In this document: positions 10,886 through 32,350 of the stretch, piece after piece
Layout of the letters: each line of letters begins with the position of its first letter
Numbering within the stretch: position 1 is the first letter of the stretch
NCBI GenBank assembly: GCA_016191145.1
Contig: JACPPD010000003.1
Coordinates: 124,001 to 188,000, forward strand
DNA: 64,000 nucleotides
Reading direction: 5' to 3'
DNA from: Ignavibacteria bacterium
GTDB lineage: Bacteria > Bacteroidota > Ignavibacteria > Kapaibacteriales > Kapaibacteriaceae
Notes under the pieces: model-generated
Told to the model about the DNA's origin: nothing
Database searches by the model: none
Seen by the model: only the letters and a program-made list of their open reading frames with translations
Translations under genes and position numbers: made by a program

Positions 10886-10994
10886 ACCTGGCACGTAGCA
10901 CCTGGCACCCTCACTACTTAGCACCTGGCACCTGACACCCGGCACTACTTAGCACCTGGCACCCGGCACTACTTAGCACCTGGCACCTGGCACT
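10886..10994. repeat. Imperfect tandem repeat, unit around actacttagcacctggcac
   Basis: About 110 bases made of repeated tagcacctggcacc-type units. Three longer units of roughly 31, 24 and 24 bases each start with actacttagcacctggcac, and shorter half-units lie at the left end. The right end forms the TAG stop (10993-10995 on the minus strand) of the nuclease-like gene. The array fills the gap between thpR and that gene. No ORF or RNA structure is apparent. Confidence 0.75.
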
Positions 10995-12234
10995 ATTTCG
11001 CAATCTTCTCCATAATCAGATGGCTTTCACCGAACTTACACAGCGCATCGCAATGGCTTCGCAATTCAGAAAATAGGATATACTTAATTGCAACATTGTT
11101 TTGTCGGATTGCGGGGCGCGACAACTGCAGTTTGACATCTCGTTCTCTCGTATCCGGTACAATCAGATAGAACACCTCGTCACCATCTGCCATAGAAAAA
11201 CTAAGATCTGCCAGGCGTAAAATGCCAGAGTAGATACTCGTACTCTTTTCAACCTCGAATGCGGCCACAACGTTGTTTGTGCCCTTCTGGAACCACAGAA
11301 CATCAATTAACTTAACGGTATTTAGCGTTTCCCGATCTACGTTGATTTCTGGAAAAACTTGCAAGCACATTGATGAAAAGCTAATACCACCATGCGATTT
11401 TGAACGGTCATTCGAGGCAGCAATTACATCATATCCCAGGGCTTTGCCAATTTTTAGTAAATGATATTGCATTTCAGAATGCGAATCCTCTTCATTGTGT
11501 TCTTCCTGCACTTCCTTACGTCGTCTTACAATTGTTTTCTCCAGCCTTATTCGTTCGTCTTCGGAAAGATATCCATCTCCATTAAGTATAAGTTTTAGCG
11601 ATCCAATTTCGAACAGCAGGCCCGCAATTGCTCCCAGATCTGACGACAATTCGGAGCGAAACCGGGTATTGGTATCAATCATTACCTCTCTCAGCTTCAA
11701 ATACTCATTCCAACTCCCCAGTTTCTTTCTGTCATTAAACAATGAATTAAAACCGTTTATGATGGCTGTATTAAACGGAGGGATAATTGTAGGATGCAAA
11801 AAATACAGGATGCTGGCAACTGCAGGTCCAAGCCCCTTAACCTTCAAATCATCCAGTTTGATGATTTCTTTAATAACCTGATCTTCCGTTTTTGCATTCT
11901 GGCACGATTCGAGGAATTGTCCAAAGGCCTGTTTATTAGCTTCATTTTCATAAATATCTGGAATACGCAGTTTCGGTTTCCAGTAAAAGGGATGAGCGGC
12001 GCCTTCAAACACCTGTTTTTGCTCGGTGATGCAGGTGAGCACAAATTCTAACGACGATTCTCGAAAATCGTTGGGGAACGTCTCGTTTTTAATATCACTT
12101 ACTACCTGTGCAACACCACGTCGAATCGAACGGAATGCCTTCAGGCGATCATCGTTATTAACAAACCATGTGTTGTAAACAAATTCTTTGTCAGACTTGT
12201 ATTGTCGGATTAATTCCGTGAAATCAGCATTCAT
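10993..12234 (-). CDS. Putative PD-(D/E)XK nuclease with N-terminal helix-hairpin-helix-like region
   Basis: Not a gene I can name. The 413-residue product has an HhH-like turn in its N-terminal half ([12 protein letters not shown], about 130-141), of the kind used by DNA-repair and restriction proteins to grip the DNA backbone. The C-terminal part has a likely restriction-endonuclease fold: LIDVLWF (D311), then [18 protein letters not shown] (E327, E329, K330), a pattern seen in Mrr/type II-like nucleases. A charged linker (about 225-255, [14 protein letters not shown]) joins the halves. No methyltransferase or helicase is adjacent, so it is a solitary candidate defence or repair enzyme. The region is A+T-richer than its neighbours and lies between repeats, suggesting acquisition. 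Confidence 0.6.
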
Positions 12235-12264: not shown

Positions 12265-12292
12265 ATGCCGGGTATCAGGAGATACCCGGCAT
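12265..12292. repeat. Palindromic REP-like element, copy 1
   Basis: A perfect 12-base-pair stem, ATGCCGGGTATC / GATACCCGGCAT, with an AGGA loop. The same stem occurs twice more at 32271-32350 in unrelated context, so it is a dispersed element. Here it lies upstream of the minus-strand nuclease gene, so it is not that gene's terminator. Confidence 0.85.
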
Positions 12293-12363
12293 GGTGATAT
12301 TTCATCTTCAGTTTCCGCAGTAACGTTTCTCCCGGCGTTTCTCCCGGCAACTCTCATATTTGT

Positions 12364-12446
12364 TTTGTAACTCACCCCGCCCCTGCGGGGCACCCCTCTC
12401 CTCACGGAGAGGGGGCTGGGGGTGAGTTCCTATACGCGAAGCCCCC
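12364..12446. repeat. Left copy of an 83-base direct repeat flanking the RHS module
   Basis: The first 59 bases (12364-12422) are identical to 15091-15149, and the next 24 differ at four positions. The copies are 2,727 bases apart in the same orientation and enclose the RHS tip, metalloprotease and lipoprotein genes. The repeat contains internal inverted repeats (ccgcccctgcgggg and ccctctcctcacggagaggg). Confidence 0.85.
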
Positions 12447-12650
12447 ATTGATTCTCACATAAGGACTGACCTTGTTGATATGACAGATGACAAAAAACGA
12501 GCGGTACAATGTTCAGCAACTCGTCATCATTGGTGAGTATAGGTGCAAGTCTATGTAACACAAATTCCGGTATATTTCATGATACATGCGAATCGCTTAG
12601 CATTTGTCTGTTACAACCGGATTCTTTATCATCACTAAGTTTAATAATTG

Positions 12651-13205
12651 ATGTATTCGCCGCGGCGGAACCCCTACACCATTCCCGGCAACGTCTTCGC
12701 CGATCGCGCTGCCTGCTACCGCTCCGGCGCCGCTGGCACACTCCTAATCCATGAATGGTCCATCAATTCTACGGGTCGCATCGGCGTGAGTCGAGCTACA
12801 GATTTTGCAACAGGCGGCAATGTTCATCTGCGTCATATTGGTAAAAAAATATACAATCTCACCGATCACCTGGGATCGGTGAAGGCACTGGTCAGCGATG
12901 TTCTTGTGGAAGGGGGCACGCAGGCAGAAATCATCGGCACAAACGATTTCGATCCGTATGGCGGCAGGCGTCTCGGCAGGAACATCGTGACGGAGCAGCC
13001 CTACCGCTATGGATTCCAGGGCATGCGGCTGGTGGATGGGCTGGAGAAGTCGTCGGATTATCTAACGATGTTTAGGTTGTACAATGTGAGGACGGGGAGC
13101 TGGGGAAGGAGAGATCCGGTACTAGTTTCTGACGGATCCGCTATAGTTCTATGGGTGGTGCTCCGAATATCAATGTGGATCCATTTGGTGCAGATTACTT
13201 TGTAA
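12651..13205 (+). pseudogene. Orphan RHS-repeat core tip, 5'-truncated and frameshifted
   Basis: This encodes only the C-terminal end of an RHS/YD-repeat protein: LTDHLGSVKALVSD, DFDPYGGRR, YRYGFQGM and YLTMFRLYNVRTGSWGRRDP, the conserved RHS-associated core that precedes a variable toxin. An in-frame stop lies directly upstream (12645-12647), so the thousand-odd residues of beta-shell expected in a working RHS protein are absent. RHS similarity ends at about 13141. There the sense continues in another frame as YSSMGGAPNINVDPFG, the normal hinge into a toxin domain. The remaining residues up to 13205 are out-of-frame read-through. One missing base at about 13139-13142 would restore the fusion. 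Confidence 0.8.
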
Positions 13206-13933
13206 GCAGAAAAGGGAATCGGATCACTATTAAAGTCGTCATAAAAATATTCAGCAATCGAGCGTCAAAGGCACGCGCGGAAATAATTCGGAAGGAGCTT
13301 TTAAAGAAATGGGATAAACGGGATGGCTGGAAGGTGAAGGACTCCAAGGGAAATCGCGTCGTTGTCCACTTTGAATTCGATGTTTCGCTTTTTAATGATG
13401 ATAATCCAAGCGCAGAACCAGCGGACGAGCAAAATGGAAAACGTGACGGTACAAATTTTGTCAAATTCACGGACGATTTAGCTCCTGCGGGATCAGATCC
13501 AATTGTGAGTAAGCTCAACGCACAGGAGACCGAGAAACCGATAGCAGGAAATCGAAGTTGGGTGGATGGAAAATCACCAAATTTTGGTGTTTGGGCCGGA
13601 AACTATGTTAACAAAGGTACATATGCTCACGAGCTTGGTCATCTTCTTGGACTAGAGGATCGGTATGAGGAGTATACATATTTTTCCATTCTCGACTTCC
13701 ATCACCGAGGTGAGAAGGAAGGATTGAAGGATGCTGATACTGATTACAGTCCTCATGCAGGATGGGAAAAGAATATCATGGGCAATTTTTCTGAATCGGT
13801 TAACCTGCGTAATATACAGCAGATGATAGGCACCTTGCCGACGGGAACATTTGATGGTGCATTGATCAGAGCTGTTATTCCTAATGGGGGTTTAAACAAA
13901 CCTAAATTGAACAACCCTCTAAATCCTAATTAG
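13142..13933 (+). CDS. RHS-linked metalloprotease (zincin) domain, candidate polymorphic toxin
   Basis: The frame opens with the RHS-to-toxin junction (SSMGGAPNINVDPFG) and continues with a roughly 245-residue variable domain. Counting from ATG 13151, it holds HELGHLLGLED (H160, E161, H164, G167, D170), a HExxHxxGxxD zinc site like that of snapalysin-type metzincins, and NIMGN (M210), a plausible Met-turn. It should therefore be a zinc endopeptidase. ATG 13151 has no visible ribosome-binding site, which suggests the domain was once translated as the tail of the RHS protein. The lipoprotein gene follows after 3 bases, or 30 from its preferred start. Toxin function is inferred from the architecture; the substrate is unknown. 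Confidence 0.7.
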   Translation, partial: YSSMGGAPNINVDPFGADYFVSRKGNRITIKVVIKIFSNRASKARAEIIRKELLKKWDKRDGWKVKDSKGNRVVVHFEFDVSLFNDDNPSAEPADEQNGKRDGTNFVKFTDDLAPAGSDPIVSKLNAQETEKPIAGNRSWVDGKSPNFGVWAGNYVNKGTYAHELGHLLGLEDRYEEYTYFSILDFHHRGEKEGLKDADTDYSPHAGWEKNIMGNFSESVNLRNIQQMIGTLPTGTFDGALIRAVIPNGGLNKPKLNNPLNPN

Positions 13934-13963
13934 AAAGTGCTTGTAAAGTTATATAATGTGTTT

Positions 13964-14923
13964 ATGAACATCAAGTGCGTGACCGTGCGAGCCTCGGTGT
14001 TAAATTTACTCTGTATAGCTGTGATAGCTTCTGCGTGTAATTATCAGAAGCAAGAAGATTCTCAAACATTGAATGTCATTAACTATTGTGATACTATTTC
14101 ATTTACTTATTGTTATATAGGTAATCAATGGGAGTACATAAGTGCATCTCGTATAAAAGCGGTAGCCAGTGATATTAAAGCAATATATATTGATGGATTT
14201 GGTGGTAAATATTTTGAACACGAATTGCTGAATGCGATGGTCAGCCTGGAAGAGGTACGGATAGGTTCTGTACCTATGATTGGTAATCGAGTGAATGTTT
14301 GCATGGACAGCAACACTATCGCAGATATTTTTTATGCTCTTTCTAAGCAGCCAAAGCTTGCAACACTTGAGATTCACGGTGTTGTGGTCCCTTCAGGAAT
14401 ACTGCAATATGTTAAACGACTCAGGCATCTGACGACACTTACAATACAGACACTGTTCGTGGATGCTGGCTCAGGATTTGATGTGGATTCAACTCTCCGG
14501 TTTTTAAGCTTTTCTGCCTTGTGTGATTGGAAGAGATTGCATTTCGAGAGGCTTCATGCTATTGAGGAGTTGCACATCGACCTTCTTAGTGACAGTGCTG
14601 AAGTTGTTCTGAAGCAGATTGCGTTGGTAAACAAACTCAAAAATATACGATTGGGTATAGGTGGCCGTAAAGACACAACGACCAAGATTGCACTGCCGTC
14701 AAGTTATTATTCGATGCACTTGGAAAGTTTCGAAATCTATGCACCAGACCTCTATTTCGATATTGACATAAAAAAAATGAGCTCAATAATGACCCTAAAG
14801 AGTCTTTGTATAAGGACCAGAACGTCGGAGGAAAATAAATCCTATAGCCGCCATGTCAGGCGATTGATGCGTAACAGACCGGATGTTTTAGTGGAAATAA
14901 ACAACTGTAATCCTTGGATGTAG
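13964..14923 (+). CDS. Leucine-rich-repeat-like lipoprotein, candidate immunity partner
   Basis: The preferred ATG at 13964 gives a 319-residue protein with a lipoprotein signal peptide: basic start, hydrophobic core and lipobox VIASAC with the modified Cys at residue 25. An upstream in-frame start at 13937 would add nine residues. The rest shows degenerate leucine-rich repeats (YVKRLRHLTTLTIQTL, HFERLHAIEELHIDLL, LVNKLKNIRLGIG, SYYSMHLESFEIYAP, SSIMTLKSLCI), so a curved solenoid displayed in the periplasm or on the outer membrane is likely. It sits directly downstream of the metalloprotease domain, on the same strand and equally A+T-rich. An immunity role is inferred from position only; I recognise no family. 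Confidence 0.6.
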   Translation: MNIKCVTVRASVLNLLCIAVIASACNYQKQEDSQTLNVINYCDTISFTYCYIGNQWEYISASRIKAVASDIKAIYIDGFGGKYFEHELLNAMVSLEEVRIGSVPMIGNRVNVCMDSNTIADIFYALSKQPKLATLEIHGVVVPSGILQYVKRLRHLTTLTIQTLFVDAGSGFDVDSTLRFLSFSALCDWKRLHFERLHAIEELHIDLLSDSAEVVLKQIALVNKLKNIRLGIGGRKDTTTKIALPSSYYSMHLESFEIYAPDLYFDIDIKKMSSIMTLKSLCIRTRTSEENKSYSRHVRRLMRNRPDVLVEINNCNPWM

Positions 14924-15090
14924 TTTATACTGAGTCGAGCGGATTTATAGACCAGTTACGTTTTTCAAAGTTGTGGCTAAGGATCTTCGTTCCCGTGTGC
15001 TGCAGATGGTTTATGATGTTCAGTACATTGTAAAATAGATAATAAAAATGTATAAGAAGATTATTTGAGTGTGTCTCTCAATTGATTTGA

Positions 15091-15173
15091 TTTGTAACTC
15101 ACCCCGCCCCTGCGGGGCACCCCTCTCCTCACGGAGAGGGGGCTGGGGGCGAGGTCCGATACGCGAAGCTCCC
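15091..15173. repeat. Right copy of the 83-base direct repeat
   Basis: Matches 12364-12446 with 79 of 83 positions identical and is joined directly to the tandem array to its right. It ends about 215 bases short of tRNA-Lys. Confidence 0.85.
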
Positions 15174-15345: not shown

Positions 15346-15388
15346 ACGAAATAAAAATGTAGGCGTATGTAGATCGCCCAGCTCATTG

Positions 15389-15461
15389 TGATCTCGCAGG
15401 GACTCGAACCCTGGACCCTGTGATTAAAAGTCACATGCTCTACCAGCTGAGCTACGAGATC
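15389..15461 (-). tRNA. tRNA-Lys (anticodon TTT)
   Basis: On the minus strand the acceptor arms GATCTCG and CGAGATC pair over 7 bases with discriminator A. The D arm is GCTCAGCTGGTAGAGC, the anticodon stem TGTGA/TCACA encloses loop CTTTTAA (anticodon TTT), and the T arm is CAGGG-TTCGAGT-CCCTG. The 3' CCA is not encoded. Confidence 0.95.
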
Positions 15462-32270: not shown

Positions 32271-32310
32271 ACCACCATGCCGGGTATCTCTTGATACCCG
32301 GCATGGTGGT
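32271..32310. repeat. Long palindromic REP-like element, copy 2
   Basis: A perfect 18-base-pair stem (ACCACCATGCCGGGTATC / GATACCCGGCATGGTGGT) with a TCTT loop. It lies 8 bases after the cupin stop and downstream of the minus-strand tRNA-Leu, so it could terminate both. Its loop is the reverse complement of copy 3's, so the two are in opposite orientation. Confidence 0.9.
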
Positions 32311-32322
32311 AATAAAACAGTG

Positions 32323-32350
32323 ATGCCGGGTATCAAGAGATACCCGGCAT
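32323..32350. repeat. Palindromic REP-like element, copy 3
   Basis: The same 12-base-pair stem as copy 1 with an AAGA loop, 12 bases from copy 2 in inverted orientation. The pair resembles BIME-type units. Confidence 0.9.

Follow-up and report, generated by a model that had tools for sequence, protein, structure and literature searches.

Organisation of the locus

The window analysed here, a stretch of 64,000 nucleotides from an Ignavibacteria bacterium of the order Kapaibacteriales, contains a small module made up of a fragment of an RHS (rearrangement hotspot) core, a C-terminal tip that resembles a zinc protease, and a gene for a predicted lipoprotein with repeats like leucine-rich repeats (LRR). 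The window corresponds to G000:C15:124001-188000, and the genome from which it comes is an assembly of 2.47 Mb in 19 contigs, listed as 99.96% complete. Labels beginning with G denote genomes and those beginning with L denote loci opened for comparison; G001-G005 are the five other genomes of the genus. Coordinates are collected in Table 1.

A first-pass annotation of this DNA had reported RHS core motifs followed by the motifs HELGHLLGLED and NIMGN, and then by a lipobox protein whose frame opens three bases further on. All of these are present. The core lies in the frame 12648-13205: it matches the Rhs_assc_core model (TIGR03696) weakly and under the cut-off (E 0.01), and residues 22-150 of the query are 31% identical to an RHS gene of the same genome (E 7.2e-15). 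Both protease motifs fall within the open reading frame (ORF) 13151-13933. The frame of the lipoprotein is opened by a GTG on the same strand at 13937, 3 bases past the tip stop; the ATG at 13964, 30 bases past the stop, is a better fit for a signal peptide and lipobox (...AVIASAC).

What the annotation missed is that core and tip, although both present, do not form one frame. Three-frame translations place the core (around 12735-13121) and the tip in different frames, and no single open frame covers both. The core frame ends at a stop at 13203-13205, the tip frame is open only 3′ of a TGA at 13130-13132, and the two open frames overlap at 13133-13205. The tip ORF begins MGGAPNINVDPFGADYF, which is the usual ending of an RHS core, yet is out of frame with the core.

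Base composition also differs along the module. The GC content at third codon positions (GC3) is 0.61 in the core, 0.39 in the tip and 0.40 in the lipoprotein gene, compared with 0.47-0.57 in six other genes of the window. Such a mosaic would be expected where an RHS tip/immunity cassette has been joined to a core.

Table 1. Positions of the module and its surroundings within the window.
Feature	Position	Strand	Basis or remark
89-nt GC-rich repeat, 5′ copy, same orientation as the 15085 copy	12358..12446		Repeat finding; pair 94% identical
Fragment of an RHS core (129 aa) within the frame 12648-13205	12735..13121	+	Match to own-genome RHS gene; Rhs_assc_core E 0.01
Frame break, RHS core versus tip (approximate)	13119..13150	+	Three-frame translations
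RHS core end (...NVDPFG) and metzincin-like zinc protease tip, 260 aa	13151..13933	+	ORF, alignments, profile matches
HELGHLLGLED zinc-binding motif (HExxHxxGxxD)	13628..13660	+	Sequence; alignment
NIMGN, Met-turn-like motif	13772..13786	+	Sequence; alignment A2, NIM common to L013 and L014
Candidate immunity gene: predicted LRR-like lipoprotein, 319 aa	13964..14923	+	Alternative start GTG 13937
Signal peptide with lipobox ...ASAC at its end (Cys 25)	13964..14038	+	Sequence; heuristic lipobox assignment
LRR-like region	14174..14812	+	Motifs and Foldseek matches
89-nt repeat, 3′ copy; more repeat units up to about 15330	15085..15173		Repeat finding
tRNA-Lys(TTT), adjoining the module	15388..15461	-	Integrase on same side of tRNA in relative G001

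A probable orphan RHS module

A 5′-truncated core, a tip and an adjacent partner gene are thus all present, as in the orphan rhs-CT/rhsI modules described in enterobacteria (Poole 2011, PMC3150448; Koskiniemi 2014, PMC3967940). The first-pass annotation had noted that no large RHS body is present, and we agree: neither an RHS body, nor a YD-repeat body with an N-terminal delivery or export domain, nor an upstream signal peptide was found at the locus.

It had also raised the possibility that the tip is displaced and recombines with a full-length RHS gene at another place; for this genome that is not supported, and a full-length partner here is rejected. The genome has four places with an Rhs core, in open frames of 185, 307, 550 and 632 aa, and RHS repeats occur only within the 632-aa frame. 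Searches with the core and with RHS repeats found no full-length RHS gene in this genome, though one could still lie in an assembly gap. The other matching cores are 31% and 34% identical to the window core at the protein level, and among the collected loci the only DNA matches to the window core are copies of the window itself. The module is therefore without a visible recombination partner here.

A different situation is seen within the genus. G004, which is a single contig, has an RHS frame of 2479 aa together with seven shorter cassettes at 2.499-2.516 Mb, and the cores of these cassettes have 89-93% DNA identity to the full-length gene over 166-323 bases (L076, G004:C1:2497000-2516999). 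One genome of the genus thus has a full-length gene and a seven-cassette array, and the present one only stranded pieces.

Two further RHS loci of the same genome were opened. On contig C14 there are two tandem truncated RHS ORFs (L007:8424-12820): one has a Lnb_N-like tip (E 0.0019, under the cut-off) and is followed by a small exported protein containing Cys, and the other has a DUF3238 tip followed by a protein with four transmembrane segments. An integrase/helix-turn-helix pair lies about 4 kb from them. On contig C10 (L010:1402-3084) an RHS tip with an HExxxH-like sequence, HELFSHF, precedes a predicted lipoprotein of 252 aa, and a diverged copy of the GC-rich repeat lies about 180 bases 3′ of the pair.

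The metzincin-like tip

The tip carries the zinc motif HExxHxxGxx(H/D) of the metzincins, as HELGHLLGLED. The H, E and H are invariant in alignment A5, whose members were selected by that motif. The NIM of the Met-turn-like motif is found in all three rows of alignment A2 and is absent from the more distant rows of A6. Pfam places the tip in no family, either above the cut-off or at E 0.01; weak matches to M6 and M66 peptidases (E up to 1) were all that it gave, and they are also all that it offers on a protease domain of the VgrG2bC-ter type.

The closest matches to the tip are themselves RHS tips. One in the same order (G044/L005, E 7.1e-9) has as its listed ORF that of contig L013. In a search confined to candidate stretches, L013 and the Bacteroidales contig L014 matched with E 5e-14 and 8e-11, and a match in G479 was obtained with a three-tip profile (E 4.1e-10). 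The window tip, L013 and L014 have in common the HExxH, the NIM and residues along the N-terminal half, and related RHS tips align over most of the tip length. Judged from these alignments, the resemblance to RHS tips is more than chance. In L013, L014 and L043 core and tip are in one frame; the L013 tip is followed by a lipoprotein, that of L014 by a protein with four transmembrane segments, and that of L043 by two tandem lipoproteins, the second judged by eye. The relatives are thus RHS tips that stand before genes for exported or membrane proteins, which bears out the earlier proposal of an orphan RHS metalloprotease tip with an envelope-directed candidate immunity protein. At L031:1351-3061 (G479:C190) two lipoprotein-like genes in tandem, similar at their starts, come after a metzincin-type RHS tip.

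Applied to 123 genomes of the order, the three-tip profile gave 11 matches, namely eight RHS ORFs, assigned from reading frames and core matches, and three secreted non-RHS proteases, assigned by eye. As to whether the HELGH domain groups with RHS tips or with secreted proteases, the strongest matches are RHS tips, and the three secreted proteases have scores like those of the remoter RHS tips. With the tip as a single sequence, no homologue was found in the genome contigs, and only the own genome was recovered from 395 genomes of the phylum. Nothing was found in viral contigs and plasmids, phages not being searched. In the five other genomes of the genus the tip has no match.

Run against the PDB, a nine-tip profile had 96 matches at E 1 or lower, the best at E 0.0015; its alignment (A6) is our own pick from 38 aligned tips and omits L042, a tip with a metzincin-type motif. 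The 60 matches listed of the 96 are snapalysin, serralysins, astacins, ADAM/ADAMTS proteins, matrix metalloproteinases and similar enzymes, which we take to belong to the metzincin clan. Snapalysin (M7) has the same HExxHxxGxxD pattern, the aligned stretch being HETGHVLGLPD, and its E value is 0.0096 with a profile of two tips and 0.0015 with nine. Unlike an RHS tip, it is a free secreted protease. Among the 38 tips Pfam recognised one Tox-MPTase2 and six Peptidase_M91 domains, and the window tip is in neither family. In its sequence the tip resembles zinc proteases of the metzincin type.

The predicted LRR-like lipoprotein

The partner is a predicted lipoprotein, the prediction coming from a home-made lipobox heuristic. 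The strict LRR motif L..L.[ILVF] occurs 4 times, compared with 0.93 expected in shuffled sequences (p 0.010). Looser LRR-like motifs start at residues 71, 95, 132, 156, 178, 200, 225, 253 and 278, these nine positions having been chosen by eye for their spacing from 13 loose matches in the mature part. Pfam gave nothing above the cut-off, and LRR_14 under it (E 0.013). A Foldseek search with the structure model had a best E of 2e-5, and its 50 listed rows, judged from their titles, are mostly LRR proteins; they include NLR proteins, Skp2, TLR13, a Legionella LRR protein and ribonuclease inhibitor. The LRR-like nature of the lipoprotein is thus modestly supported.

An LRR-like lipoprotein partner was not seen beside the other RHS tips examined. 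A scan of 39 partner proteins, that of the window included, gave no hit to Pfam LRR families at E 0.01, and the excess of the strict motif was strongest in the window lipoprotein (p 0.0115; the next 0.05). No homologue was found in 60 relatives. In 395 genomes of the phylum there were three weak matches outside the own genome (E 0.0017-0.0097), which we reject as chance, as by eye they fall inside genes for a zinc ABC-transporter, an aroA-like and a recJ-like protein.

Genes behind other RHS tips

To place the pair in context, the genes behind RHS tips were counted in regions of this order and of other parts of the phylum. The regions were hand-picked, favouring arrays and strong matches, and are not a random sample; the tips are not phylogenetically independent, and those with HExxH were found by regular expression. 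The partner was taken as the next gene after the ORF with the RHS core, and was classed by a home-made rule for signal peptides, lipoboxes and transmembrane segments, not by SignalP. A single sequence served as seed for the first core hidden Markov model (HMM), and 60 matches of that model for the second, all from this order apart from L014.

The first count kept 82 of 105 tips (9 were dropped at a contig end, 11 for a tip shorter than 100 aa and 3 for want of a gene). The partner was exported or a membrane protein behind 23 of 24 HExxH tips and 49 of 58 other tips, compared with 33 of 132 genes behind non-RHS ORFs. In the second count, 91 of the order's 119 core ORFs were retained (8 were lost at a contig end, 15 for a tip shorter than 60 aa, 3 for want of a gene and 2 as duplicates), with 80/91 exported or membrane partners, that is 25/26 for HExxH tips and 55/65 for the others. 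Outside the order, 59 of 69 and 16 of 31 were kept, with 43/59 and 12/16 such partners. The corresponding nulls were 12/73 in the order, and 2/28 and 0/1 outside it. For E. coli K-12, 6 of 8 were kept, and 4 of the 6 have such a partner (null 0/3); the gene behind rhsD, annotated ybbC, is a lipoprotein by the heuristic (L152, NC_000913.3 522300-530000).

Pooling left 162 of 166 tips once repeats were removed. HExxH tips exceed other tips both in exported or membrane partners (35/36 versus 96/126, Fisher p 0.0033) and in partners of lipoprotein type (17/36 versus 23/126, Fisher p 0.0008); in the order alone, the lipoprotein difference is marginal (p 0.039). An HExxH partner in G022 that was scored as 'none' has, by eye, a start like that of a signal peptide. 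The window is in none of these partner counts, its core frame being broken, and L014 is in the first only.

In this sample, then, partners are as a rule envelope-directed, and those of protease tips are often lipidated. The first-pass remark that a lipidated partner would be unusual does not survive: beside the 17 HExxH tips, lipoprotein immunities are described for the Tpe-Tpi family (PMC6899460), and the idea of lipidated immunity as a rarity is rejected. The counts suggest that lipoprotein partners are much commoner in this phylum than the collection of Zhang 2012 (PMC3482391) implies. Partners that are mostly exported or membrane proteins in this order, and nearly always so for HExxH tips, would predict weapons that act in the envelope.

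Repeats and the tRNA-Lys site in relatives

The module is enclosed by two 89-nt direct repeats and lies beside tRNA-Lys. The exact core of the repeat has 25 copies in the genome, in about ten clusters, of which two flank the module, one lies about 1.9 kb before the RHS pair of C14, and seven others are without an RHS core. The repeat is a dispersed intergenic repeat and is not RHS-specific. There is also a short dispersed palindrome, found in the window at 12265-12292 (upstream of the module) and 32277-32350 (near tRNA-Leu), and again at L007:8443-8470, at the very start of the first RHS ORF of C14.

No module was found beside tRNA-Lys in G001, G003, G004 or G005. In the last three the tRNA-dxs junction is present without it. 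In G001, a close relative whose dxs is 95% identical, the DNA similarity ends just beyond the same tRNA-Lys, and a phage-type integrase lies on the module side of the tRNA (L021:529-1878, G001:C103); the gene by this integrase resembles, by eye, the neighbour of the C14 integrase. G002 was left out of the comparison of sites, its contig ending less than 300 bases past dxs.

Interpretation and alternatives

On the basis of these observations, we hypothesise that the locus is a displaced RHS toxin/immunity module, an orphan whose toxin would act in the envelope and whose lipoprotein would bind and block the protease, and that it is now at most a silent reservoir; we consider this probable. A full-length RHS carrier, ancestral or in a relative, would deliver the tip to the envelope of a neighbouring cell, either the periplasm or the surface, where the protease would cut envelope proteins of the target. 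The lipoprotein, anchored in the envelope of the producer, would bind and block the protease, its LRR arc lying over the enzyme in roughly the way in which RNase is enclosed by ribonuclease inhibitor. How the toxin is delivered, what it cuts and how it is neutralised are inferred. The toxin appears silent in this genome, because of the frame break and because no carrier was found: an RHS fusion could not be made from the present sequence, which would leave the module as a silent reservoir at most. The immunity gene, with its open frame, may still guard against relatives that have a live toxin.

A more specific version is put forward only tentatively. The lipoprotein may be an LRR inhibitor tethered to the membrane, where in the envelope it would clasp a metzincin toxin as a bacterial counterpart of ribonuclease inhibitor, and it may have been retained as a stand-alone shield after the toxin had lost its means of delivery.

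A number of observations weigh against this interpretation. The structure predictions are poor: the model of the tip has a mean pLDDT (predicted local distance difference test) of 39, and its best VIA-align match (Z 5.0) covers mainly residues 14-84, with no metzincin in the listed rows; the lipoprotein model, made from a single sequence and the one used for Foldseek above, has a low-confidence pLDDT of 54. The looser LRR pattern is in no excess (13 compared with 9.9 expected, p 0.16). Ala, the residue found here at position -3 of the lipobox, is not the commonest one. We infer the immunity role of the lipoprotein from its position only, no homologue having been found outside the genome from which to judge co-occurrence with the tip. 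RHS tips of every kind often have an exported partner, which makes export weak evidence for this pair specifically; in the order alone, HExxH tips do not differ significantly from the others in this respect (25/26 versus 54/64, p 0.17). The secreted non-RHS proteases (G468, the second G453 site and G435, by eye) match the tip profile with E 7e-5 to 0.004, over the HExxH part, and four of the eight RHS matches (G445, G022, G452 and G459) score no better than that of G468. Finally, the frame break could signal decay of both genes.

This last point leads to the alternative that we take most seriously, although it is unlikely in our view: that core, tip and lipoprotein are simply the non-functional remains of an inserted module. 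The 5′ truncation and the break at the core/tip junction would fit such a fossil, as would the lack of a full-length RHS gene in the genome and of the module beside this tRNA in four relatives; in L084 (G022:C66), too, the RHS core has an in-frame stop close to its junction with the tip, at about the place of the frame break in the window. However, frames of 260 and 319 aa have stayed open with the zinc motif and the lipobox intact, and an orphan module elsewhere is reported to have been cryptic and yet able to return to use (PMC3967940).

The frame break may instead be an assembly error, the orphan tip being in one frame in the real organism. Single-base errors occur in assemblies of this kind, and the genome is in 19 contigs; we give this a smaller chance. 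It is compatible with an orphan module, and even then the gene would be without body or export signal.

It is rather improbable that the lipoprotein is an unrelated surface LRR lipoprotein, an adhesin or sensor that stands behind the tip by chance. LRR lipoproteins do occur as surface proteins, no homologue was found beside any other RHS tip, and the scanned partners lack Pfam LRR matches. Against this, the gene starts 3 to 30 bases past the tip stop, its GC3 is low like that of the tip and unlike that of the core, it lies inside the same direct repeats as the tip, and envelope-directed partners are usual behind RHS tips.

Programmed frameshifting, which would join core and tip into a living, regulated RHS gene, is very unlikely: both frames are open and overlap, but no slippery heptamer of known type was seen by eye, the core is no longer than about 150 aa and lacks an export signal, and the relatives L013, L014 and L043 have core and tip in one frame.

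Comparison with known systems

Like the enterobacterial orphan rhs-CT/rhsI modules, the present one has a 5′-truncated RHS fragment, a toxin tip and a small gene behind it, without start or export signals. There, too, a retained core can be broken, as by the in-frame stop in a Yersinia orphan module (PMC3150448). In Salmonella the main rhs gene is reported to recombine with an orphan (PMC3967940). The present case differs in that no main rhs gene and no close core for recombination were found, and in that the tip is metzincin-like and the partner an LRR-like lipoprotein.

By analogy, the nearest tested counterpart of the proposed pair would be VgrG2b-PA0261 (Tpe-Tpi), in which the toxin is a periplasmic metallopeptidase and the immunities of the family are periplasmic, inner-membrane or outer-membrane lipoproteins (PMC6899460). 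Both would pair an HExxH protease toxin that acts in the periplasm with an immunity protein located in the envelope, the lipoprotein here being predicted by the heuristic only. VgrG2b has a thermolysin-like domain on a VgrG carrier (PMC6899460), whereas the window tip is metzincin-like and lies behind an RHS core.

Zhang 2012 (PMC3482391) describes Tox-MPTase1-5 and other metallopeptidase toxins, HExxH domains in RHS-repeat proteins that include those of Bacteroidetes. The window tip shares the HExxH domain and the association with RHS but, unlike them, is in no Pfam family above the cut-off. LRR proteins (Imm-LRR) and one lipoprotein family are already among the immunity proteins of that work. 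Imm-LRR is listed beside toxins of the type V secretion system (T5SS), and Imm65, which accompanies Tox-JAB-1, is called the sole lipoprotein immunity of the collection. The passages on Imm-LRR and Imm65 make no mention of an LRR lipoprotein.

An orphan RHS module is a known kind of element, and only the pairing with an LRR lipoprotein looks new. It would add a metzincin-like RHS tip and an LRR-like lipoprotein partner to the known toxin/immunity scheme. Our literature search found nothing on Rhs in Kapabacteria and nothing on point about LRR immunity, though we do not claim that none is in print.

Additional observations

Upstream of the module, the minus strand (window 10993-12234) carries a gene for a protein of 413 aa with no Pfam match. 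In L101 and L102, both from G030, the RHS core matches end after 28 HMM positions, and the gene behind each encodes a protein of 278 aa, its listed start identical in the two loci, which presumably resembles an Rpn-type nuclease. At the other extreme of length, an RHS core at G320:C27:27457-27693 lies inside an open frame of 9840 aa.

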